A stretch of DNA of 64,000 bases, taken from NCBI GenBank assembly GCA_004369085.1, contig ML210221.1:1-64000 (forward strand), written 5' to 3'. The position numbers and the translations under genes were made by a program. This document shows, in pieces, positions 7,291-64,000 of the stretch (the stretch's first letter is position 1; each line of letters opens with the position of its first letter). The DNA comes from Coprinopsis marcescibilis. Its lineage: Eukaryota; Basidiomycota; Agaricomycetes; Agaricales; Psathyrellaceae. Under the pieces are notes generated by a model. It ran no database searches. It worked only from the letters and a program-made list of their open reading frames with translations, and was not told the origin of the DNA.

Positions 7291-8520
7291 TTAAGCTGAT
7301 ACAGGGAACTCCTTTGTCCAGGGCTTTCCGCCGTATCTTTCATTCCAGGGAATATGTGCCATGGTCACCATTCCTGTTCCAACAGAACTCTTCCTCACTA
7401 TGTCCTTGGCTACCTTTACTACCTCTATCATCACGAGAGAATCCTTGGCTAGGTCTTGCTGATGGACGGCAGACAGGACCTGGATTCTCGATAGGTTTTT
7501 ACACGTCAAAAGGACCTTTAATGTCTCCTTGAAATCTGTATTAGCCTCGGGTAACGTCTCGACAACCTAGCCTGCACTCACGGACTCTGCCCAGGCGGTC
7601 AACCGTAGCTCGCGAAGATTAGGAGTTGCCTTGACAATCCCTAGCAAGGCTAAGCCCCAACTGCAACGACTTGACTATTGAACTTACTCTGCAAAACATT
7701 CTTCGAGCCAAATCTTCCTTCCAACACTTCCACATGCTTACAACAGTCCCGAATGGCAGTAACCAACTGGCTGCCGTCCCCATGATTGCAGATCACAGTC
7801 CTTGCCGAAGGACATGCACGCAACACAGGATACGCCTGGGTTGGCAGGATGACTGTCTCAATCGAGGGAAATGACTTTCCCTCAAACCCTTTCTTGAACA
7901 TGTTCATCATCTCTGTGTGGGCGAAATGTATGTTCAACGTCTTGAGGCTCGTAAGTGCCTTCAAACCCTCTGCAAATGCTGGCATAACAGTGTTCACCGA
8001 ACACCTCGACAACACCACCCTCATATTCCTGTTGAGTGCCAAGTCAGCACCATCCTTGTATACCAAAACACACTAACCTGACCAAACCTGCAACCTTATC
8101 CATCTCCGGATCCGCCACACCCAGGCACTTTCTCTGCAACGCTTCAGAAATCCCCTTGTACCAGTGTCCCCCCGGGTTCCTCAGCACCGAAACCTCCATT
8201 GTCTCCCATAACATTGGCAAAAACACGATTCTCCACCGAGTGCACGTCTGCGATAACGCCCTCAACGCATCGGTTCTCTCCAGAATCCATGGAGGAAGCA
8301 AACGATGATTCGGTGTCTCCATCTTCAGAGTCGTCATCGTAATCGGACTCTTATACCATCCCACAACCTCCATCAGCAACTCTAGCGGCAGCTCTAAAGC
8401 AAGCGACCTTCCCTGCACCGACGGCGACGCTGTCGTCTTCTGTGCAGATGAAGAGTTAGCATTTGCACTGGGATTGCCACGTCGTTGTTGTTTAGCAGGA
8501 CGAGAGTTCGGGTTGGCCAT
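7291..8520 (-). CDS. F-box domain protein
   Basis: Exons 8520-8078, 8028-7688, 7640-7582 and 7527-7291 give about 359 aa. After a polar N-terminus, an F-box-like segment starts near residue 42 (LALELPLELLMEVVGWY) and runs to LRALSQTCTRWRIVFLPMLWETMEV. The C-terminal half has weak leucine-rich character (LKTLNIHFAH, PNLRELRLTAW, KNLSRIQVLS). F-box proteins recruit substrates to SCF ubiquitin ligases through Skp1; such genes are abundant and fast-evolving in agaricomycetes. The target is unknown. The last intron is taken as 54 nt ending ttcaag, which keeps frame; a much shorter alternative was rejected. Confidence 0.75.
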
Positions 8521-8782
8521 ATTTCGAGTGGGCTTAACCAGCAGGTTCAGGTCGATGCTCTTTTCAATACATCGACATCTTTCGAGTCAACAGCCTCGCT
8601 ACCCCAGGTGCGATCGGAACCTTTAGACAATCACCGCCTTTTATTCTAAAGAGGCAAGCCCGCCAACAGATATGAGTCGGGAGGGCGCAGGCTCGAGTCA
8701 ATCAATTTCGAAAGGCATTCATGTGTTGCCGGCACAATAGTAGTATTATCAACAGGTCGAGTCACAATTACAGCATCTTCAA

Positions 8783-22298: not shown

Positions 22299-22838
22299 AT
22301 GCGATTCTCCACCACAGTTATGCTCTTGACCTCACTGCTTGCAGTCAGTGCGCTCCCCATCGTGAGTTCTGTCGGGTGTCATATTTCCGGAGAGCTCTCA
22401 CTCACTGCTCCCGTTTCATCTGTTGTCAGAGCGGAGAGGGAGTTGTTGCTGTACGTTCTCCTGCCCTTTAAGCTAGCGGACCAGCCGATTGACATTATAC
22501 TTCAGAGAGATGGCGCGCTAGTGGAACGAGACCCCATCTTCAAGTCGAGCTCTTGGAGACGGGAGGCTGATCCTCAGGGTGGACGACCCAACCAAGGAAG
22601 GCCCTGGAGGCGCGAACCCGAAGCCGATCCGCAGGGTGGACGACCCAACCAAGGAAGGCCCTGGAGGCGCGAGCCCGAAGCTAATCCACAGGGCGGACGA
22701 CCCAACCAGGGAAGGCCATGGAGGCGCGAGCCTGAGGCTGATCCCCAGGGTGGACGGCCCAACCAGGGAAGGCCCTGGAGGCGCGAGCCTGAAGCTGCTC
22801 CCCAGGGTGGACGGCCCAACCAAGGAAGACCTTGGTAA
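22299..22838 (+). CDS. Secreted precursor with five Kex2-type peptide repeats
   Basis: Exons 22299-22361, 22430-22450 and 22506-22838 give about 138 aa. The signal peptide is MRFSTTVMLLTSLLAVSALP. A short pro-segment (SGEGVVARDGALVERDPIFKSSSW) leads to five tandem units. Each unit is Arg-Arg, then two or three dipeptides of X-Pro/X-Ala form (EP, EA, DP/NP/AP), then the core QGGRPNQGRPW. Unit 1 lacks the EP pair; units 2-5 are 19 residues each. Arg-Arg is a Kex2 site, and X-Pro/X-Ala dipeptides are the kind trimmed by Ste13-type dipeptidyl aminopeptidase, as in yeast alpha-factor precursor. By inference the product is a secreted 11-mer, five per precursor. Core and repeats match no peptide I know. 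No tailoring oxidase gene is next to it, so chemical modification is undetermined. Confidence 0.8.
   Translation: MRFSTTVMLLTSLLAVSALPIVSSVGCHISGELSLTAPVSSVVRAERELLLYVLLPFKLADQPIDIILQRDGALVERDPIFKSSSWRREADPQGGRPNQGRPWRREPEADPQGGRPNQGRPWRREPEANPQGGRPNQGRPWRREPEADPQGGRPNQGRPWRREPEAAPQGGRPNQGRPW
22556..22835 (+). repeat. Tandem coding repeat, 51 bp plus four units of 57 bp
   Basis: Five in-frame units within the precursor gene. Unit 1 is 51 bp and units 2-5 are 57 bp each. Codons of the 11-residue core differ among units only at synonymous positions (GGT/GGC, CGA/CGG, CAA/CAG, AGG/AGA, CCC/CCA/CCT). The codon before the last spacer Pro changes the residue (Asp, Asp, Asn, Asp, Ala). Confidence 0.92.
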
Positions 22839-23599: not shown

Positions 23600-25965
23600 A
23601 TGAGCCAGCCAGTTCCACCGTCTCCCGCAGTAAGCAATACAGTCACGATCTGAATAAGGCAGGCGAGAGACTAACGACTGCGCTCCGGCGCTTTGTTGCA
23701 TAGAGGAGCAATACCTTCTCGCACACCGAATATCGAGGACCCGACCCGTAAGTCTTACGAGCTACAGAGCCGAAAACGACAGCGCGACTGAACTGTCTTT
23801 GCTTCCGCCAGCTTCGCGCCGCGCCGTCGCCCAGGCGGAGCCTTGCTCGACGCTGTGTTAGCGACCGCCCTCTTCCGTTGCTGGCACCATCTTCTCTTCT
23901 TTGGCGCATGGGCCACTCTCATAACCGTCCTGAACCACAATGGTCACGAACTCTGGATTGAGACCACCCTTTTGACGGTGTAAGTTGTCCATTTATCCGA
24001 TCGCGAGCCACTCCAGGCTCTTGGCAACGAAGCCAATTAACCATTTACCCCACATAGTCTTGGTACAGTCCTCGGTTTTGTCATTTCATACAGGACGACT
24101 GCCTCTTTCGAGCGATACAATGAAGGAAGAAAGTTTTGGTCGCATATCATTCTTGCTTCACGAAACATGGCTCGCCTGATTTGGTTCCATATCCCAGGTC
24201 TGCAATTATTCATTACTTGCTGACAGTTTCCTCGATTTGTATTGACCCCCAGATGATAGATGCTGTGGGACGCACCCCAGAGGAAACCGAAGAACTCAAA
24301 GCTAGAGCCTACATTGAGAAGAAGACGGTCATCAACCTCCTAGAGGCCTACGCTGTCGCCGTCAAGCACTATCTCCGTGGAGAGGATGGGATTTACTACC
24401 AGTAAGTTCGCCATCACCGTCCGCCAAGGATGCTGTGTGACTTAGGTGTCCGTTTCTTCTCAAGGGATCTCTATCATCTCGTCAAGTTCTTGCCTGCTTA
24501 CGCCCTACCCGCCGGTCTTCCATCTCAAACTGACCTCAGCAATATCGGAGTCGAGCCTGCCTCTCCCAACGGTCACGATGATGACGACGACGACGACGAT
24601 AACGAGAAAGGTGTCTCCACCTCCAATAGGCCAAGCAACGATGGCTCGCAACTGCACCAACGACATGCAGGTGGCGGCAATGCCCCAAACCTGCCCTTGC
24701 CTATTTCGTCTCCTTCGACCAAGTCCAACAAGCGTTCTTCAGTTATTGGAGGTGCCAGCATGAAGTCCCCCACCTCTCGTGTCAGCTTTGCCATAGATCC
24801 TGTCAAGAGAACCATCATCGCTCCTGCAGACGAAGCATTCCTCTTGCCAGCCCATATGCCCCCGAAATACACCATCTTTGATCTTTTCCCGTTCTCGTTG
24901 TTGATCAAGCATTTCTCCAAGGGCGGTCATGAGGTTAAAGGCAAGAAGGCAGCTCGCATTCGGGCAAAAATGCGCAAGAATACCGTTTCTCACAATTTGC
25001 CTTTGGAAATCTCACTCTACCTGGTACGTCCCTTAACACACGATTGACGTAGTCGACTAACCAAGCTTTGTTCAGAGTTCTTATGTCGCTACGATCCAAG
25101 AAAGAAAGCTCTGCGATGTACCGACCTACAGTCAGTACCTCCAGAATCTGTTACTTCTTGTTGCGCTAATATAATTCAAGGCAACCTTCACTCTAACTTG
25201 ACTATGTTGGTCGACAGCTTGACTGGTCTCGAGAGAATCCTCACCACTCCGGTTCCATTCTCGTTAGTTTTCTTTCTCGCACTACAATTCATTTGCTGAT
25301 ATAGTACTTCCAGGTACTCCATCCACTTGTGGGTCACGACAATCATTTACTGCCTGGCCCTGGTTAGTCCCTCACCCCTCAATGTCTGGCTGAACTAAAC
25401 TAGGATTTCCGTTTAGCCATTTCAAATCTGGAAACCTCTCAAGTGGATTACCATCCCGGCCACAGCCATCTCGGTACGCCTCATTTTTAGATTCATGGTT
25501 TTCTGATTTCTCACCACGGTCTTTGATCCAGAGTTTTATCTTCTTTGGATTCCTGGTCGCCGGAGAGGAGATTGAGAGTAAGCGCCAAACACAATTTCGG
25601 CTAAAATCTTTCTGATTCACTCCTTCTTAGACCCTTTCGGCTATGATAAAAATGATTTGGTGCGTATTGCGTAGAATAAACCAAGTAATGTTACTGACAC
25701 GAGTGACCGACTATAGAACCTGGATCATTTCACGTCGGAGATTATCCGTAAGTTTTACAAATTGGTTCCAAAGCACGATGCTGAGTTCCTCCTAGGTAAT
25801 GAGCTCAAAGCAGTTACCTCTGCGCCAAGGCCCAACCCAGAGAAATGGGCATTCTCTCCAGAGAACAACACATTGTTCGGCGAGCACCGCGGCGAACGTA
25901 CTGGGCCGGAGGAGTGGGTTTCTAAAGGGCCTGCGGCGATCGTCGCGTCAATGTCCAACTATTGA
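23600..25965 (+). CDS. Bestrophin/UPF0187-family membrane protein
   Basis: Fourteen exons give about 533 aa: 23600-23629, 23704-23747, 23812-23979, 24058-24197, 24260-24401, 24465-25023, 25076-25130, 25181-25262, 25314-25362, 25417-25473, 25532-25577, 25631-25659, 25717-25747 and 25796-25965. The start is MSQPVPPSPARSNTF. Family landmarks include TVLGFVISYRTTASFERYNEG, FWSHIILASRNMARLIWFH, AVAVKHYLRGEDG and GEEIENPFGYDKNDLNLDHF near the end. Several hydrophobic segments are present. A low-complexity insertion with an Asp run (24577-24603) and Ser-rich stretches lies in exon 6. Relatives are anion channels or putative transporters; the location is inferred to be a membrane. The exon 5 acceptor is ambiguous: ending the intron at the AG before ATGCTGTGG keeps frame. 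Confidence 0.85.
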
Positions 25966-26177: not shown

Positions 26178-29010
26178 ATGCGGCTTGGACTTATCTTGCG
26201 CTTGGGCATCCATATCAGACCCAGATCTTATCCTCAAGTTCATCGTTTCCGATATTCGTCCACCATGGCTTCGACAGTGAACAAGACAACTCACACATTC
26301 GATAAATCTAGGCTCGATGCCTTGCTCAACCGTCGCTTTTTCTACGCTCCGGCCTTTGAAATCTACGGGGGTGAGCACCTGCAAGTCCATCGGACCAAAA
26401 CAGTAGAACCCTGATCAATTTCACTTGCCAGGTGTCGCTGGTCTGTACGACTATGGCCCAGCTGGCTCTACGCTGCAAGCCAACATCATCGCGGAATGGA
26501 GGAAGCATTTTATCATCGAAGACGGCATGCTCGAGCTCGACACTACCATAATGACTCCGTCTGCAGTCTTTGAAACGTCTGGACACGTCGCACGCTTCGC
26601 TGACTGGATGGTGAAGGATGTGAAGACAGGCGATGTTCTTCGTGCTGACCATCTGGTGAAAAGTGTGCTTGAGGCTCGATTGGCAGGAGACAAGGAGGCA
26701 CGGGGCCAGGAGGCTGCTCCACCCACGGAGGACAAGAAGAGGAAGAAGAAAGCCGCAAAGGTCACAGTTGTGAAATTGGAGGATGCTGTTGTCCAACAAT
26801 ATGAAACAATCCTCGCCCAGGTAATGTGTTACACGCCGTCACTTTGCCTGTCACTAATCCCAGACCGGTTGGGAAACAGTTGGACAACTATGGTGGACCT
26901 GAAATCGGGGAACTCTGCAGGAAGTATGATATCCGCAACCCTGACACAGACAACGAGGTTGGAGAGCCACAACAGTTCAACCTCATGTTCCAGAGTAGTA
27001 TTGGCCCCACCGGTCAACACAAGGGGTATGCATTATCACAGTACACCATTTCCTTGTCACATTAACCTGTCTTTCATCTAGATTTTTGCGTCCTGAAACT
27101 GCTCAGGGCCACTTCCTCAACTTCAATCGGCTACTTGACTACAATAATGGCCGTGTTCCATTCGCATCAGCCCAGATTGGCAGATCCTTCCGCAATGAAA
27201 TTTCGCCCCGTGCCGGTCTCCTTCGCGTCCGAGAGTTCACCATGGCCGAAATCGAACACTTTGTTGACCCAGAGGACAAGAGCCATACTCGTTTCAAGGA
27301 AGTCAGAGATGTAGAAATCGTCGCTCTTGACCGTCATACCCAAGAAGCCGGCAACTCCGAGACGCGACGAATCACTGTTGGAGAGGCTGTCGATAAAGGG
27401 ATCATCGCCAACGAGACCCTCGGGTATTTCGTTGCTCGCATTTACCAGTTCCTTGTCAACATTGGTATCGACCCCGCACGCCTCCGGTTCCGCCAGCATA
27501 TGGGTAATGAAATGGCCCACTACGCCACTGATTGCTGGGATGCTGAAATTCAAAACACCACCGGCTGGACGGAGTGCGTTGGTTGCGCAGATCGCGCTGC
27601 GTATGATTTGAGTGTCCACTCAGCGAAGACCGGCACCCCATTGGTCGTCCGACAGGCATTGAAAGAGCCGATCGTCACCGAGAAGGAAGCCGCTGAATGG
27701 AACAAGAAGGCTCTCGGAAAGACCTTCAAGCAGGATGCGGGCACCATCCAGAAGATTGTGGAGGGCTTGGACGAGACTGGCCTCATCAAGCTCAAAGGAG
27801 AGCTCTCTCAGGGGTACGTTGAAATTCGTTTACCTGTCATCACCTCTTTTTTACTACAATCACGCTGACTTCTATGATGTAGATCCACCACGCTCAAATC
27901 CGAGGAGGGCAAGGAGTTCACTCTCACTCCGGAAGTCCTTACCATCGAACGCAAGACCTTGAAGCAATCAAGTAAGCACTGTGTGCTTTATCTGACTGTC
28001 GTCAAGCCTCTTTGGATTCGCGCTTAGGGTATTCTCCTTCCAGTCCGCGAATTCACCCCGAACGTCATCGAACCTTCATTCGGCTTGGGCCGTATATTGT
28101 ATTGTCTCCTTGAGCATAGTTTCTGGGCTAGAGAACAAGATGTGGAGCGTGGCGTAAGTTACTTCAACTGTGAAAGACTAACCTTCATGTTTTCTGACAA
28201 CCTCGGCCATATGTCCTCTAGGTTCTCTCTCTTCCTCCCCTCGTGGCTCCTACCAAAGTTCTCATTGTGCCCTTGAGTGCCCGAGAGGAATTCGACCCTA
28301 TCGTTGCAGAGATAAGTGCGTCATTAATTCCTCGTTGCACCGTCCATCCTTATTGATTCCTGATCTCCGCCCTTTCTTTTTGGTCGATAACCAACGCTGC
28401 TTCCTGTTCCTGCGCCCTTCATTTCCATAGCTGCTAAACTTCGCAGAGCTGGTGTATTCTCTCGCATAGATGACTCAAACACCTCAATCGGCAAGCGATA
28501 CGCGCGGAATGACGAGTTGGGCACTCCTTATGGTCTAACAATTGACTTTGCTTGTACGTTAACTTTACCTCTGTTATCTCGTCCCCCCGTTGCCCATCTG
28601 CCTCCTGGTGTGCTGGGTTTATCGACATCACCAATACACCTGTCAACAATCACTTTCGTTTACTCTCATCTGCTTTTGGGGATGACGAATGATCCTTTCT
28701 ATACGTCTTTTGCTTTACTATTTCTGACCTTTGCATCAAACAGCTGTTCAAAACCGGACCGTAACTATTCGGTAAGTCCCGAATTCCTTCAACTTCTCCG
28801 TCCATCTTTTGGGAAAGATGTAGCGTGGAGTGGACTTGTTCGAACCTGCCGGCTGACTATTGTTGCAGGGAGCGGGATACTATGGATCAAAGAATAGGCA
28901 AGATTGATGATGTTATTGCGACAGTCACGGAACTCGTCTTCGGAAATATTGACTGGGCGGAGGCTTGCAACCGTCTTCCCAAGTACGACGGCGTTCAGGC
29001 CGTAGAGTAG
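26178..29010 (+). CDS. GRS1: Glycyl-tRNA synthetase, probably dual mitochondrial/cytosolic
   Basis: Exons 26178-26370, 26432-26820, 26880-27025, 27082-27813, 27883-27971, 28044-28153, 28222-28315, 28431-28553, 28744-28771 and 28869-29010. The class II core is complete: [26 protein letters not shown], the motif 2 region [21 protein letters not shown], and motif 3 [19 protein letters not shown]-terminal anticodon-binding domain follows ([27 protein letters not shown]). A Lys/Arg-rich insertion ([10 protein letters not shown]) follows the first block. Two in-frame ATGs exist. The one at 26265 sits in CACCATGG and yields 652 aa. The one at 26178 adds 29 residues that are Arg-rich and lack acidic residues ([19 protein letters not shown]), like a mitochondrial presequence. 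Dual targeting is inferred. Confidence 0.93.
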
Positions 29011-59813: not shown

Positions 59814-60298
59814 CTTCGTTACTTGCAAACCAATCTAATTTGGCGAATAAATTATTGGCGCTGGAGAATGAGACGGGAGGTTTCCCGCCATTACCTCCAA
59901 TACAAACAGTTGTTTTGGGGTAGACGCGATGAGATTCAAGTTTCGTGTTGGGAGTTACTGCGAAAGCCATGTAAAACGACATGTCGGTCAGGTTGTTTTC
60001 GGAGGCTCCGGCCCACTGGGAGCCGAGAGTAGGCGCCCAAAGTCCAAGTTGTGTTCTCTGTTCGTCTTGGGTTCATATCCGCTGAGAATTATTTGCGACT
60101 CTATCTTTTGCCCTACTATGACCCGAGAAACCTAACGAATCCAACCATATTCCATTGCTTCAAAGTATCCAATATCCATGCGATGCTAATAGTATGAATG
60201 AAACCCGAGATAAATACTAAAATAGGTTCTAAAGCCATAAAATCAATAAAAATGCAACAAAACAGACAAGGTATCGCAATATCCACGTTCCAAACCAA
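59814..60298. other. Intergenic between convergent PNPOx copy C and Dna2 gene
   Basis: A+T-rich with A-rich stretches near 60215-60260 that suit converging 3' UTRs. No gene is seen. Confidence 0.4.
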
Positions 60299-63200
60299 TC
60301 AAGTTTCATTCCTAACCAAATCCTGGAGAATAGGCCGACCCTTCAACAGCCCATTCACCTTCTTAACCTTGCCCTCATCCGCCACATTCGATCCTCTCTT
60401 AAACAACACCGCCTTGCCCTTCTTCACAGGTCCCTGTTCTTCCTCCACCGCCTTGCCCTTCTTTTGGATTTTCCTCGGTCGCTCTTCTTCCGCTTTCCGA
60501 GCTACACCCAAGGCAGACGCACCACCTCCAGGCGCCTTGCGGAACCATCCATCAAGTTTGGATTGCGTTCCACTCCCCTTCAACTCGGACGATTCCGAAG
60601 AACCCGCTTGAGGAACGGCGGCCTTGCTCTTCGTCTTCACCTCCGTCCCCTTGGCCTTTGAGCCAGATCCCTTCGCCTTGGCCTTGGCCTTCGAACTCGA
60701 AGCAACAACAACTTCCGACTTGGACTCCGAAACCCTATCCCCCTTACTCTTCTTCTTCCCACACGACGGCAAAGACTTGACCGACTTGACCGACGCAGTG
60801 CTCGAAGACTTTGAGGACTGGGTATTGCCAGCAAGCGACACCCTCGACCTTGACGGAGCCCCAGCCGCAGGCCCATCATACACCACAATATCCTCATCGT
60901 CATCAATGACAATATAGGCCGGGTCAAGCTTCTCGAAGACTTCGACAACCTCCACCTCATCATCGTCCATATCCTCCACATGTCTCTTTCTCGAATTCGG
61001 AGAAGCCGAGCTGGAGGTTGACGGTGAAGGAGGGTGGCTGACAGTCTCCAAACCAACGTCGACCTTCATCATCCCCTCCTCCACATCCTCAACGACGGCA
61101 AATTCCTGATCCTGCCTGTCTTCGGCTTCACCAGCATCCTTTCCATCCACACTCCCATGCATCAAATGCGCATCCCTCGGCAACTCATAACACCAACCCT
61201 TCCCCTCCATCAACTCGAAAAACTGACTCAACAACACCTCCTGCCTCAACGTACTCCGACTCCCAAAAATCACCAACTTGCTCCTTGCCCTCGTGAACGA
61301 CACATTCATCCTCCTCCAGTCCTTCACAAGCTCCCCAATCTACACACACCAAAACAATCAGCATTCATTCGCAAGGCAAAATCGCAGTTACCACCCACCT
61401 GATTCTCAACATTGCTCCTCACAAGCGAAACAACAATGCAATCCTTGTCCCGTCCCTGACTCTTATCCGCAGTCATAACCTCAACACCACCCAACCCAAC
61501 CCCATCCTCTTCCCCACCCCTCTCCGCCAACTTTCTCGCCAACACCTTGACTTGCTGCCTATACAGCGTGATAACCCCAACACTCGAACCGTCAACTCCA
61601 CACCTCACAAGCGTCTCCACAAACTGCGCAACAAGCTCAGCTTCAACAACGTTCTGCACCAGATCCCCAGACCGCGAATCATGCGCAACATCTCCAAGCG
61701 GGTCAGTATCCACAAACACAGCTTTCGTCCTGCGACAAACCGATCAGCGACCGAACACCTTTGACTTTGCAAAACAGACTCACTTGGGGTCAACTAGATG
61801 CTCAAGCCAGCACTTTTTCACCCCCATCCCACCGCACGGATTGCTGACCCGTCTCCTTGCCCCCTCATGCATCCCCTGCAGCACCTTCACCGCACCCTCC
61901 GCCAACTCCAGCCTCCTTTCCTTCACACTCTCATTCCCACACCTCAACCGATCGTCATAAATCAGCTTATTCGAAAGCAACATGATATCCTCGTTCATCC
62001 TATACTGCTGGTTCAAATCAACCACACTATTCGGATGCGCATCCGAAAGGCGGCGGAAAAGCGACACATCCAGCCCGCCCGACCGTGCGTCAGGATTCTT
62101 AACCTACACAACCAGTCAGTTCTTCCCAATAACAACACCACACCACCAAAAAAAAAACGCACCAGAGGCGGCAACTGGAAATGATCCCCCACGAGCACAA
62201 ACTTGTCCGCATACCTCAACGGGCCCAAACACGTCGGCAACGTTATCTGCGATGCCTCATCCACAATGCAATAATCAAACCTCCTCTTACTGAACAGCAG
62301 ACTAAAAGAAACCCCATCAGCCAAGTACACCGAAATTGAAAGGGCAAGACTCACTGATCAACACCCAGACACGTAGCAGCCACCACACTCGGAGCCATCC
62401 ACTGCTTCTCCAGCTCTTCCACACTCTTCGCCTCAGGCCTCGCACCAAGCAAGTACTTTTTCGCATCCTCATGCACCTTGTCCGCATTACCCAACCTCAA
62501 CACCTTGTTCTTCCACTCATCTTCACCCCCCTCCCCAAGCTTCCTCAAAATACTATCCACAGCCGAATGCGTATAGCTCGCCAACAACACACTCTTCCCC
62601 CTCGCCACCAAAACCCTAATCAAAGCAGCCACAACCGTAGTCTTGCCCGTCCCAGGCATACCAAGCACAAGCGCATAATCCTCCGCACCCAGCACCTTTT
62701 CAATCGCCCCTTTCTGCGAATCATTCAGGTGCGTCGTAGCTTCCATGCCCAACGCAGAACTACGATTCTCGAGGTTGAATCGCGGTTCACGAAGATCAAC
62801 AACAAGCTCCCTCCGCCTGAAATCCCCATCAACATAAAACAACTGCGCCAAATTGTTCCTCATCCTCCCCATACCCCCAAACAGCTCGTCCTTGTCGATC
62901 CTAAACACCACCTCCTCTTCGCACACACCCACCCTCCGCCTAAGAATCTCCACCCTCTCCCTAATGGCTTGCATATCCACTTGATGGTCCACACCAACCC
63001 TCACCTCCTCCCCCCCAATATCCAAAATATACCCCTGGACAAACGCCAGCAAATACGGCTCAACGCTAACCGTAATGGCATCCCCAACCGACAAATGGCC
63101 ATTCAATAGACTCGCCCCATCCGACCTCGCAAACGTATACACAAACTTGTGCATCTTCCCCCCACTCTTCACCTGCACCTGGTCCCGATCCCCATCGTCC

Positions 63201-64000
63201 TTCATGACCATCCCCGCCAAACACCGTCCCCTCTTCTCCCTCTCGGCAGCCCCAAGCCTCCACAGCTCGCTCTTGAACTTGACAAGGTCCCGCTCTTCCA
63301 GCGACAGCAGCCTCTCCCACTTTCTAAAAAACTCGGCATGCTCCTTGGTCAGATGCCCCGTCTTGGACTCGTAGGTCTCTGCCAATTTCGGGTCTGTGGG
63401 TGGTGCCTCGATGGGATTCAGCGCGAATCTATACAGCATACAGCTGTCGACGACATAGCACCTCTTGCACGCATGCTCCCTGTCAATCGGGGGCGGGAGG
63501 AACGCTTCCTCAATATCCGGATTGTCCACCTCCATTCGCGTATCCACCTTTTTCCGCATCCTCTTCATCATCCAAGCAGCGAGCTCATTCCTCATTATAA
63601 TAAGACCACGAATCTCGTTTCTGCCTCTCGGTACCTATACACCAATTAATAAACCTGCATTAAATATAAATGTTCCACTTGCCTGCACAACGTCCCCGCT
63701 CTCGCTAGAGCTGTAGAACAGCAGCCCCTTCTCAACCTCTACCCCATACCGCTCGCTAGCAAGAAGGGTATACAGCATAGTCTGCGCACGATGCTCCATG
63801 CCCCCAATCATCTTCCCCGTCTTGATTTCAAACGGTCTAGGACCAGTCGTCGTCGGAGACGGGAACAACGCCGGCGCACCCCCCTCCCTAACCACAGCTT
63901 CAACCGTAACATCCAACTTGCCCTTCAACCCATACTTGGGCGACCAAATATCCTCCTCCACCTCATGCACGCGCGTGATCGCCAACAGCTCAGTCCGAGC
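60299..64000 (-). CDS. DNA2: Dna2 nuclease-helicase, 5' end outside the window
   Basis: Exons 64000(partial)-63683, 63634-62355, 62301-62163, 62103-61784, 61729-61399 and 61339-60299 give 1142 residues plus a missing N-terminus. The nuclease part shows [12 protein letters not shown] and PFEIKTGK (the acidic ...E-x-K site) and the iron-sulphur cysteines C-x2-C-x5-C in [10 protein letters not shown]. The superfamily 1 helicase follows: Walker [10 protein letters not shown], Walker [48 protein letters not shown] and [15 protein letters not shown]. Dna2 trims Okazaki flaps and resects DNA ends. The last 230 residues are disordered, Ser/Lys-rich, and contain QSKLDGWF (60565-60542), a PCNA-binding-like motif. 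The first intron visible here is GC-AG (CAG then gcaagt). Confidence 0.93.

Follow-up and report, generated by a model that had tools for sequence, protein, structure and literature searches.

A predicted alpha-type KEX2-processed repeat protein with five identical 11-residue cores, and a second precursor with different cores, in Coprinopsis marcescibilis

KEX2-processed repeat proteins (KEPs) were defined by Le Marquer et al. (2019), with a minimum of three near-identical repeats; these authors reported alpha-type KEPs in Basidiomycota and proposed them as non-mating signals (PMC6339444). A later survey of 1461 strains found 7878 KEPs, distributed over 1345 of them (Umemura 2020). In agarics, KEP processing was shown by mass spectrometry by Vogt et al. 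(2022), according to whom many basidiomycete KEPs have STE13 motifs and a C-terminal Trp (PMC9769878). Peptides ending in AADW were found in fruiting bodies of Lentinula and Pleurotus, and expression of Coprinopsis cinerea KEP 490115 in Pichia gave QMRPPSW, QYKAPSW, and pyro-QYKAPSW; in the passages cited here, the peptides confirmed from C. cinerea itself do not include those of 490115 (PMC9769878). The same authors deduced cuts after a single Arg in several Pichia-made KEPs, including 490115, saw no visible phenotype in six kep knockouts of C. cinerea, one of them in 490115, and described three KEX2 genes in that species (PMC9769878). Mushrooms use lipidated a-type pheromones for mating, which raises the question of what their alpha-factor-style peptides do (PMC6339444, PMC9769878).

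We analyzed a gene, here called KEP1, in the genome of C. marcescibilis (36.3 Mb, 448 contigs), where it lies on a contig of 134 kb (C76); the window is the whole stretch of 64,000 nt of this contig. KEP1 has five near-identical repeats at dibasic sites (KEPs have at least three) in a genome that encodes KEX2. X-Ala/X-Pro dipeptides stand before each core, and a STE13/DPPIV peptidase is also encoded, as in the alpha (STE13) type. We regard KEP1 as an alpha-type KEP that would release five linear pyroGlu-GGRPNQGRPW peptides (probability roughly 0.8). Its features are as follows (window positions).

22299..22838, plus strand: KEP1 gene from ATG to stop; three-exon model with a predicted precursor of 138 aa
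22299..22361, plus strand: exon 1, MRFSTTVMLLTSLLAVSALPI, predicted signal peptide (translation and hydropathy)
22362..22429, plus strand: putative intron 1, 68 nt, GTGAGT..CAG (predicted splicing)
22430..22450, plus strand: exon 2, SGEGVVA (translation)
22451..22505, plus strand: putative intron 2, 55 nt, GTACGT..CAG (predicted splicing)
22506..22838, plus strand: exon 3, remaining pro-region and every repeat unit (translation)
22527..22562, plus strand: unit 0, R-DP-IFKSSSW-RR, a divergent 7-mer unit (post hoc reading, aligned with the KEP2 unit KR-DPEP-QFRSKAW-RR)
22575..22607, plus strand: core 1, QGGRPNQGRPW, preceded by RR (22557-22562) and EADP (22563-22574)
22632..22664, plus strand: core 2, QGGRPNQGRPW, preceded by RR (22608-22613) and EPEADP
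22689..22721, plus strand: core 3, QGGRPNQGRPW, preceded by RR (22665-22670) and EPEANP
22746..22778, plus strand: core 4, QGGRPNQGRPW, preceded by RR (22722-22727) and EPEADP
22803..22835, plus strand: core 5, QGGRPNQGRPW, preceded by RR (22779-22784) and EPEAAP; the stop codon follows directly

An earlier note on this DNA had placed a three-exon gene at 22299-22838, with a signal peptide, a short pro-region, and five RR-led units carrying one exact core. The coordinates were exact, running from the start ATG at 22299 to the stop codon at 22836-22838, and all five cores were identical, with RR opening each unit. The three-exon model translates to 138 aa and both putative introns have GT..AG ends, but the introns total 123 nt (a multiple of three) and contain no in-frame stop, so that the gene would be open without splicing too (179 aa, ending in the same repeats); thus, the splicing is predicted. 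The signal peptide, described as seen directly, is predicted here from a hydropathy profile with a hydrophobic N-terminus (9-residue windows starting at residues 5-14 average at least 1.6), and its cleavage was placed by eye near the AVSA-LP junction. The pro-region, described simply as short, contains a sixth, divergent unit (DP-IFKSSSW-RR, unit 0). This unit and a second precursor, KEP2, go beyond the earlier note.

The five spacers of KEP1, in the order listed, consist of two or three dipeptides each; no spacer has an odd length, and all 14 dipeptides have A or P as their second residue. TRF described the array as a 57-nt unit in 4.7 copies (90% matches, score 414), and the runner-up among the 10 rows in the window scored 61. 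The 91-aa repeat stretch was found at one place in a search of the genome. When the four full units were compared, 37 of 42 pairwise codon differences kept the amino acid in the proposed frame, vs. 28 of 40 in the antisense frame that shares its third positions and 0 to 6 of 40-42 in the four other frames. The openness of the frame alone means little, because four of the six frames lack stops across the array. Between the five cores, all six changes were synonymous; under random and independent change, this has a P of about 3e-4 to 5e-4, a value to be taken as a guide because repeats may exchange sequence and synonymous changes are not fully independent. The only amino-acid variation among the four full units is in the first residue of the final X-Pro pair (D, N, D, A), a dipeptide that Ste13 would discard; the first unit is shorter by one dipeptide. 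The KEP1 frame is under selection; the array is coding and its core is constrained.

These data bear on the reading of KEP1 as a silent relic gene or as a Rep1-like repeat protein that stays intact in the wall or at the surface; the open unspliced frame and the absence of an annotated copy among the protein-database results could be cited in its favor. We consider this very unlikely: in both KEP1 and KEP2 the cores retain their amino acids while codons drift, the KEP1 core (no Tyr, no Cys, two Arg-Pro pairs) is hydrophilic, with a GRAVY of -2.25, and Rep1 is described by Le Marquer et al. as having no STE13 signature (PMC6339444).

Besides the KEP1 gene, its frame, the selection on its core, and its processing signals, we found enzyme genes of the right families. 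Kex2 P-domains were present at three loci, two on contig C6 and one on C2, a number in line with the three KEX2 genes of C. cinerea. In the PDB comparison, a C6 P-domain frame best matched kexin (E 4e-47). The second P-domain locus on C6 (L033, C6:318037-318297, minus strand) has two in-frame TGA codons in the matched stretch and is either interrupted by an intron or a decayed copy. One DPPIV/Ste13-type locus lies on C197, with DPP4 as its best PDB match (E 2.4e-24). S10 carboxypeptidases matched on five contigs, and all except the one on C3 were compared with the PDB; among these four, only the C98 locus was closest to KEX1 (E 8e-6 vs. 6e-4 for carboxypeptidase Y), which makes it a weak Kex1 candidate. 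The first M28 matches looked like aminopeptidases by eye, and the one on C2, near 1.006 Mb, is a glutaminyl cyclase gene.

We infer that KEP1 is expressed and spliced and that its product is cleaved and acquires pyroglutamate. The precursor would enter the secretory pathway, and Kex2-type proteases would cleave after every RR; a Kex1-type carboxypeptidase would then strip the C-terminal RR from cores 1-4, core 5 already ending at the stop. A Ste13/DPPIV-type peptidase would take off the X-P/X-A pairs and halt at Gln, and this N-terminal Gln would cyclize, either spontaneously or via the encoded glutaminyl cyclase, giving five linear pyroGlu-GGRPNQGRPW per precursor. The Kex2/Ste13 reading, already proposed in the earlier note, is well supported by the sequence (RR sites, 14 of 14 dipeptides, 37 of 42 in the frame test). 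Both internal Arg residues of the core stand directly before Pro, and Arg-Pro should protect a peptide from cleavage at basic sites. The computed [M+H]+ values are 1235.603 for pyroGlu-GGRPNQGRPW (618.305 when doubly charged) and 1252.629 for unmodified QGGRPNQGRPW; the predicted KEP2 product with pyroGlu would have 905.463, and a free IFKSSSW 854.441. Exact peptide masses are thus predicted for a congener of the model fungus C. cinerea.

A DNA pattern for W-RR-E[AP]-E[AP] had 11 matches in the whole genome, four in KEP1 and seven in the second precursor, and none in the reversed control.

C84:52574-53065, minus strand: KEP2 (L021), 163 residues with eight QFRSKAW cores and the C-terminal tail RREFDA (DNA pattern search and translation)

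The KEP2 spacers have 4, 6, or 8 residues, 24 of 24 dipeptides are X-Ala/X-Pro, and the cores showed six synonymous and no amino-acid changes. A fixed core length combined with spacers that vary by whole dipeptides is what is expected if a dipeptidyl peptidase removes the spacers. KEP1 and KEP2 matched each other in blastp with an E of 1.5e-22 (no filter or composition correction), a value inflated by the repeats, and no DNA similarity was seen beyond short repeat stretches. When looser patterns for alpha-type layouts were run on the whole genome, a third gene of this layout was not found: RR-[ED][AP][ED][AP] had 89 matches (12 of them in KEP1 and KEP2) vs. 70 in the reversed control, with no other cluster, and W-KR-[ED][AP] had 55 vs. 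37, with no cluster. The protein database search with KEP2 returned no fungal copy; of the 7989 candidates scored, a single protein of an ascomycete, Immersiella caudata, matched weakly (P0002, E 2.1e-3). This protein has RREPEPAP-like spacers and different cores, and the match was taken as shared spacer composition. In the family libraries, KEP2 had low-complexity matches below the cut-off only. Contig C84 also carries an S10 carboxypeptidase gene (L053, C84:77854-79511, minus strand), at a distance of approximately 25 kb from KEP2; in the PDB, it matched lysosomal protective protein and carboxypeptidase Y best, rather than KEX1.

In a local alignment, the KEP1 segment LVER-DP-IFKSSSW-RR-EADP paired with the first unit of KEP2, NLKR-DPEP-QFRSKAW-RR-EPEP. 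This comparison was post hoc, having been made after the sequence was seen. The 7-mer IFKSSSW scored 21 against QFRSKAW, 20 against QYKAPSW, and 12 against QMRPPSW; a random W-ending 7-mer would reach these scores with a chance of 0.004, 0.010, and 0.12, respectively (best of three, 0.016), and the likeness to QMRPPSW was thus no better than chance. Among 799 real W-ending 7-mers from 120 fetched proteins, the scores were reached by 2, 0, and 111, respectively. Unit 0 begins with I, not Q, and it is preceded by a single Arg (ER), after which cleavage is uncertain. The pattern [FY][KR][AS]x[AS]W-[KR]R had six matches, one of them unit 0, vs. seven in the control and gives the link of unit 0 to the 7-mer cores no support; it is blind to KEP2, whose Ser codon is AGY.

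We read unit 0, with moderate confidence, as an earlier core in decayed form. KEP1 probably, though by no means surely, descends from a type of precursor with 7-mer cores like QFRSKAW, of which unit 0 would be the persisting decayed copy. Taken with KEP2, unit 0 suggests that an existing scaffold has received a different core, and the genome suggests that the signals for processing are kept when the message is exchanged. A more far-reaching version is doubtful, namely a core-swapped signal gene whose scaffold was refitted with the 11-mer and which may still release IFKSSSW, so that one precursor would yield two messages, received by receptors outside the STE2/STE3 mating system. The genome offers a compact test case: two precursors with unlike cores, processing-enzyme genes, and, in KEP1, a possible fossil of an older core.

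The precursor layout of KEP1 is that of ascomycete alpha pheromones (PMC6339444), which could make KEP1 a true alpha mating pheromone acting via a Ste2 receptor. This is the least probable of the readings considered. The STE3 profile had 18 exon matches at about six loci on contigs C24, C40, and C210, none of them on C76, the KEP1 contig, vs. no match for STE2 (PF02116) in the genome; the STE2 profile was silent in all 14 genomes, controls included, so that absence is not proven. With this reservation, the absence of a detected STE2 argues against a Ste2 mating pheromone, and the core QGGRPNQGRPW, which has no Cys, lies outside the WCXXGXXCW consensus (PMC3068285). Some ascomycete alpha pheromones also deviate from this consensus (PMC6339444). 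KEP1 had no match to an alpha-factor family in Pfam. The location of the STE3 loci off C76 and the lack of a STE2 match, with the same silent control, fit the earlier view that KEP1 is not a lipidated mating pheromone.

A RiPP-like product had also been offered. In this reading, KEP1 would be a dikaritin-like precursor, and a UstYa-type enzyme would cyclize or oxidize its core prior to release. At least eight UstYa matches (PF11807) were found in the genome. Of 76 KEPs with homology to putative Basidiomycota pheromones, 17 were reported to have UstYa genes close by, and in one UstYa-associated KEP type, P-3, W occurs with P and Y is not emphasized (Umemura 2020). All eight UstYa (DUF3328) matches lie on C59, C72, and C280, however, and none on the 134-kb C76 or on C84. 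The KEP1 core lacks Tyr, the residue cyclized in ustiloxins, asperipin-2a, and phomopsins; Tyr occurs in 65.6% of the repeats of UstYa-associated KEPs and is usual, not strict (Umemura 2020). Six-frame Pfam scans of 8-38 kb showed no tailoring enzyme, these scans being not fully sensitive, as they missed an F-box-like match. The absence of a nearby UstYa argues against a cyclized RiPP, which we consider highly improbable. The UstYa loci (L002-L009) form pairs with spacings of about 1-7 kb, two of the pairs on C59 being mirrored, and are candidate dikaritin-type RiPP clusters.

In the same six-frame scans (E ≤ 0.01), the only families detected were bestrophin and class II aminoacyl-tRNA synthetase, on the right of KEP1 in either case; ten long frames, of the 125 listed, were also scanned singly and added an F-box-like match and a Dna2-like helicase. 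Two bestrophin-family stretches (PF25539; one above and one below the cut-off) lie downstream of KEP1 at 23963-25275 (plus strand), and the synthetase core and anticodon-binding domain at 27083-28549 (plus strand). In the otherwise unrecognized left flank, the F-box-like match (8047-8586, minus strand) was below the cut-off. A Dna2-like helicase exon (AAA_11, Dna2_Rift; 62354-63634, minus strand) spans part of a stretch, 60001-64000, in which GC skew was -0.40 in both 2-kb windows vs. -0.27 to 0.11 in the other 30. No tRNA or Rfam matches were found in the window.

The most likely function of the KEP1 product is that of a secreted peptide signal, addressed to the producer or to other organisms and outside the CaaX/STE3 mating system; we infer this function and hold it tentatively, at slightly below even odds. 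The main rival is an antimicrobial multipeptide precursor, in which, as with insect apidaecin and hymenoptaecin precursors, a cationic Arg/Pro peptide would hit competing microbes and the copies would amplify the dose. It ranks as such because ant hymenoptaecin precursors share the layout, with RR followed by EAEP or EANP and a Gln-starting peptide, and a divergent first unit (PMC3415428); the authors of that work assume maturation by Kex2, Kex1, and a dipeptidyl-aminopeptidase (PMC3415428). The two Arg-Pro pairs and the very hydrophilic core would also suit such a role. We nevertheless consider it unlikely, since the RR-dipeptide layout is a processing signal and says nothing on function, the Pfam apidaecin family had no match to KEP1 up to E 10, and synthetic KEP peptides, among which the KEP1 peptide is not named, inhibited none of five bacterial strains in the passages cited here (PMC9769878).

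A search for relatives, a check put forward in the earlier note, was run with KEP1 on the protein database and gave no relative at E ≤ 10 among 5267 candidates; the database includes at least one C. marcescibilis protein (P0038). In the family libraries, KEP1 had only a Pro-rich match below the cut-off, and the PDB search of the precursors gave two matches that were not meaningful (E 0.9 and 1.8). Full-text searches of the literature found neither QGGRPNQGRPW or three of its fragments nor QFRSKAW, FRSKAW, or IFKSSSW; the supplementary tables of the KEP papers lie beyond this search and might list the gene. C. marcescibilis is not named in the main text of these papers, and the literature search showed no more recent study of alpha-type agaric KEPs. 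The novelty implied by the earlier note was not supported, since alpha-type KEPs of Basidiomycota were reported in 2019 (PMC6339444) and processing in agarics was shown in 2022 (PMC9769878). The class being already known, KEP1 adds a member, not a new kind.

Among the known systems, ascomycete alpha precursors share with KEP1 a secretion signal (predicted here), cores of 9-24 residues, and Kex2 and Ste13 signals (PMC6339444), whereas the KEP1 core falls outside WCXXGXXCW and STE2 was not matched (control silent). Ant hymenoptaecin and bee apidaecin precursors resemble KEP1 in the RR-EAEP/EANP-Q layout and the divergent first unit, but they belong to another kingdom and have other cores; the layout is convergent, with no homology shown (PMC3415428). 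The alpha-type KEPs of Basidiomycota, a phylum whose mating pheromones are a-type, have the canonical alpha-precursor layout, as does KEP1, which differs from those of Le Marquer et al. in its core sequence (PMC6339444). KEP 490115, from the same genus, resembles KEP1 in its RR sites, X-A/X-P spacers, and Q...W cores; its cores, however, are 7-mers, and the 11-mer of KEP1 has no evident similarity to them (PMC9769878). KEP2, with its QFRSKAW cores, looks like a closer counterpart of KEP 490115 than KEP1 does.
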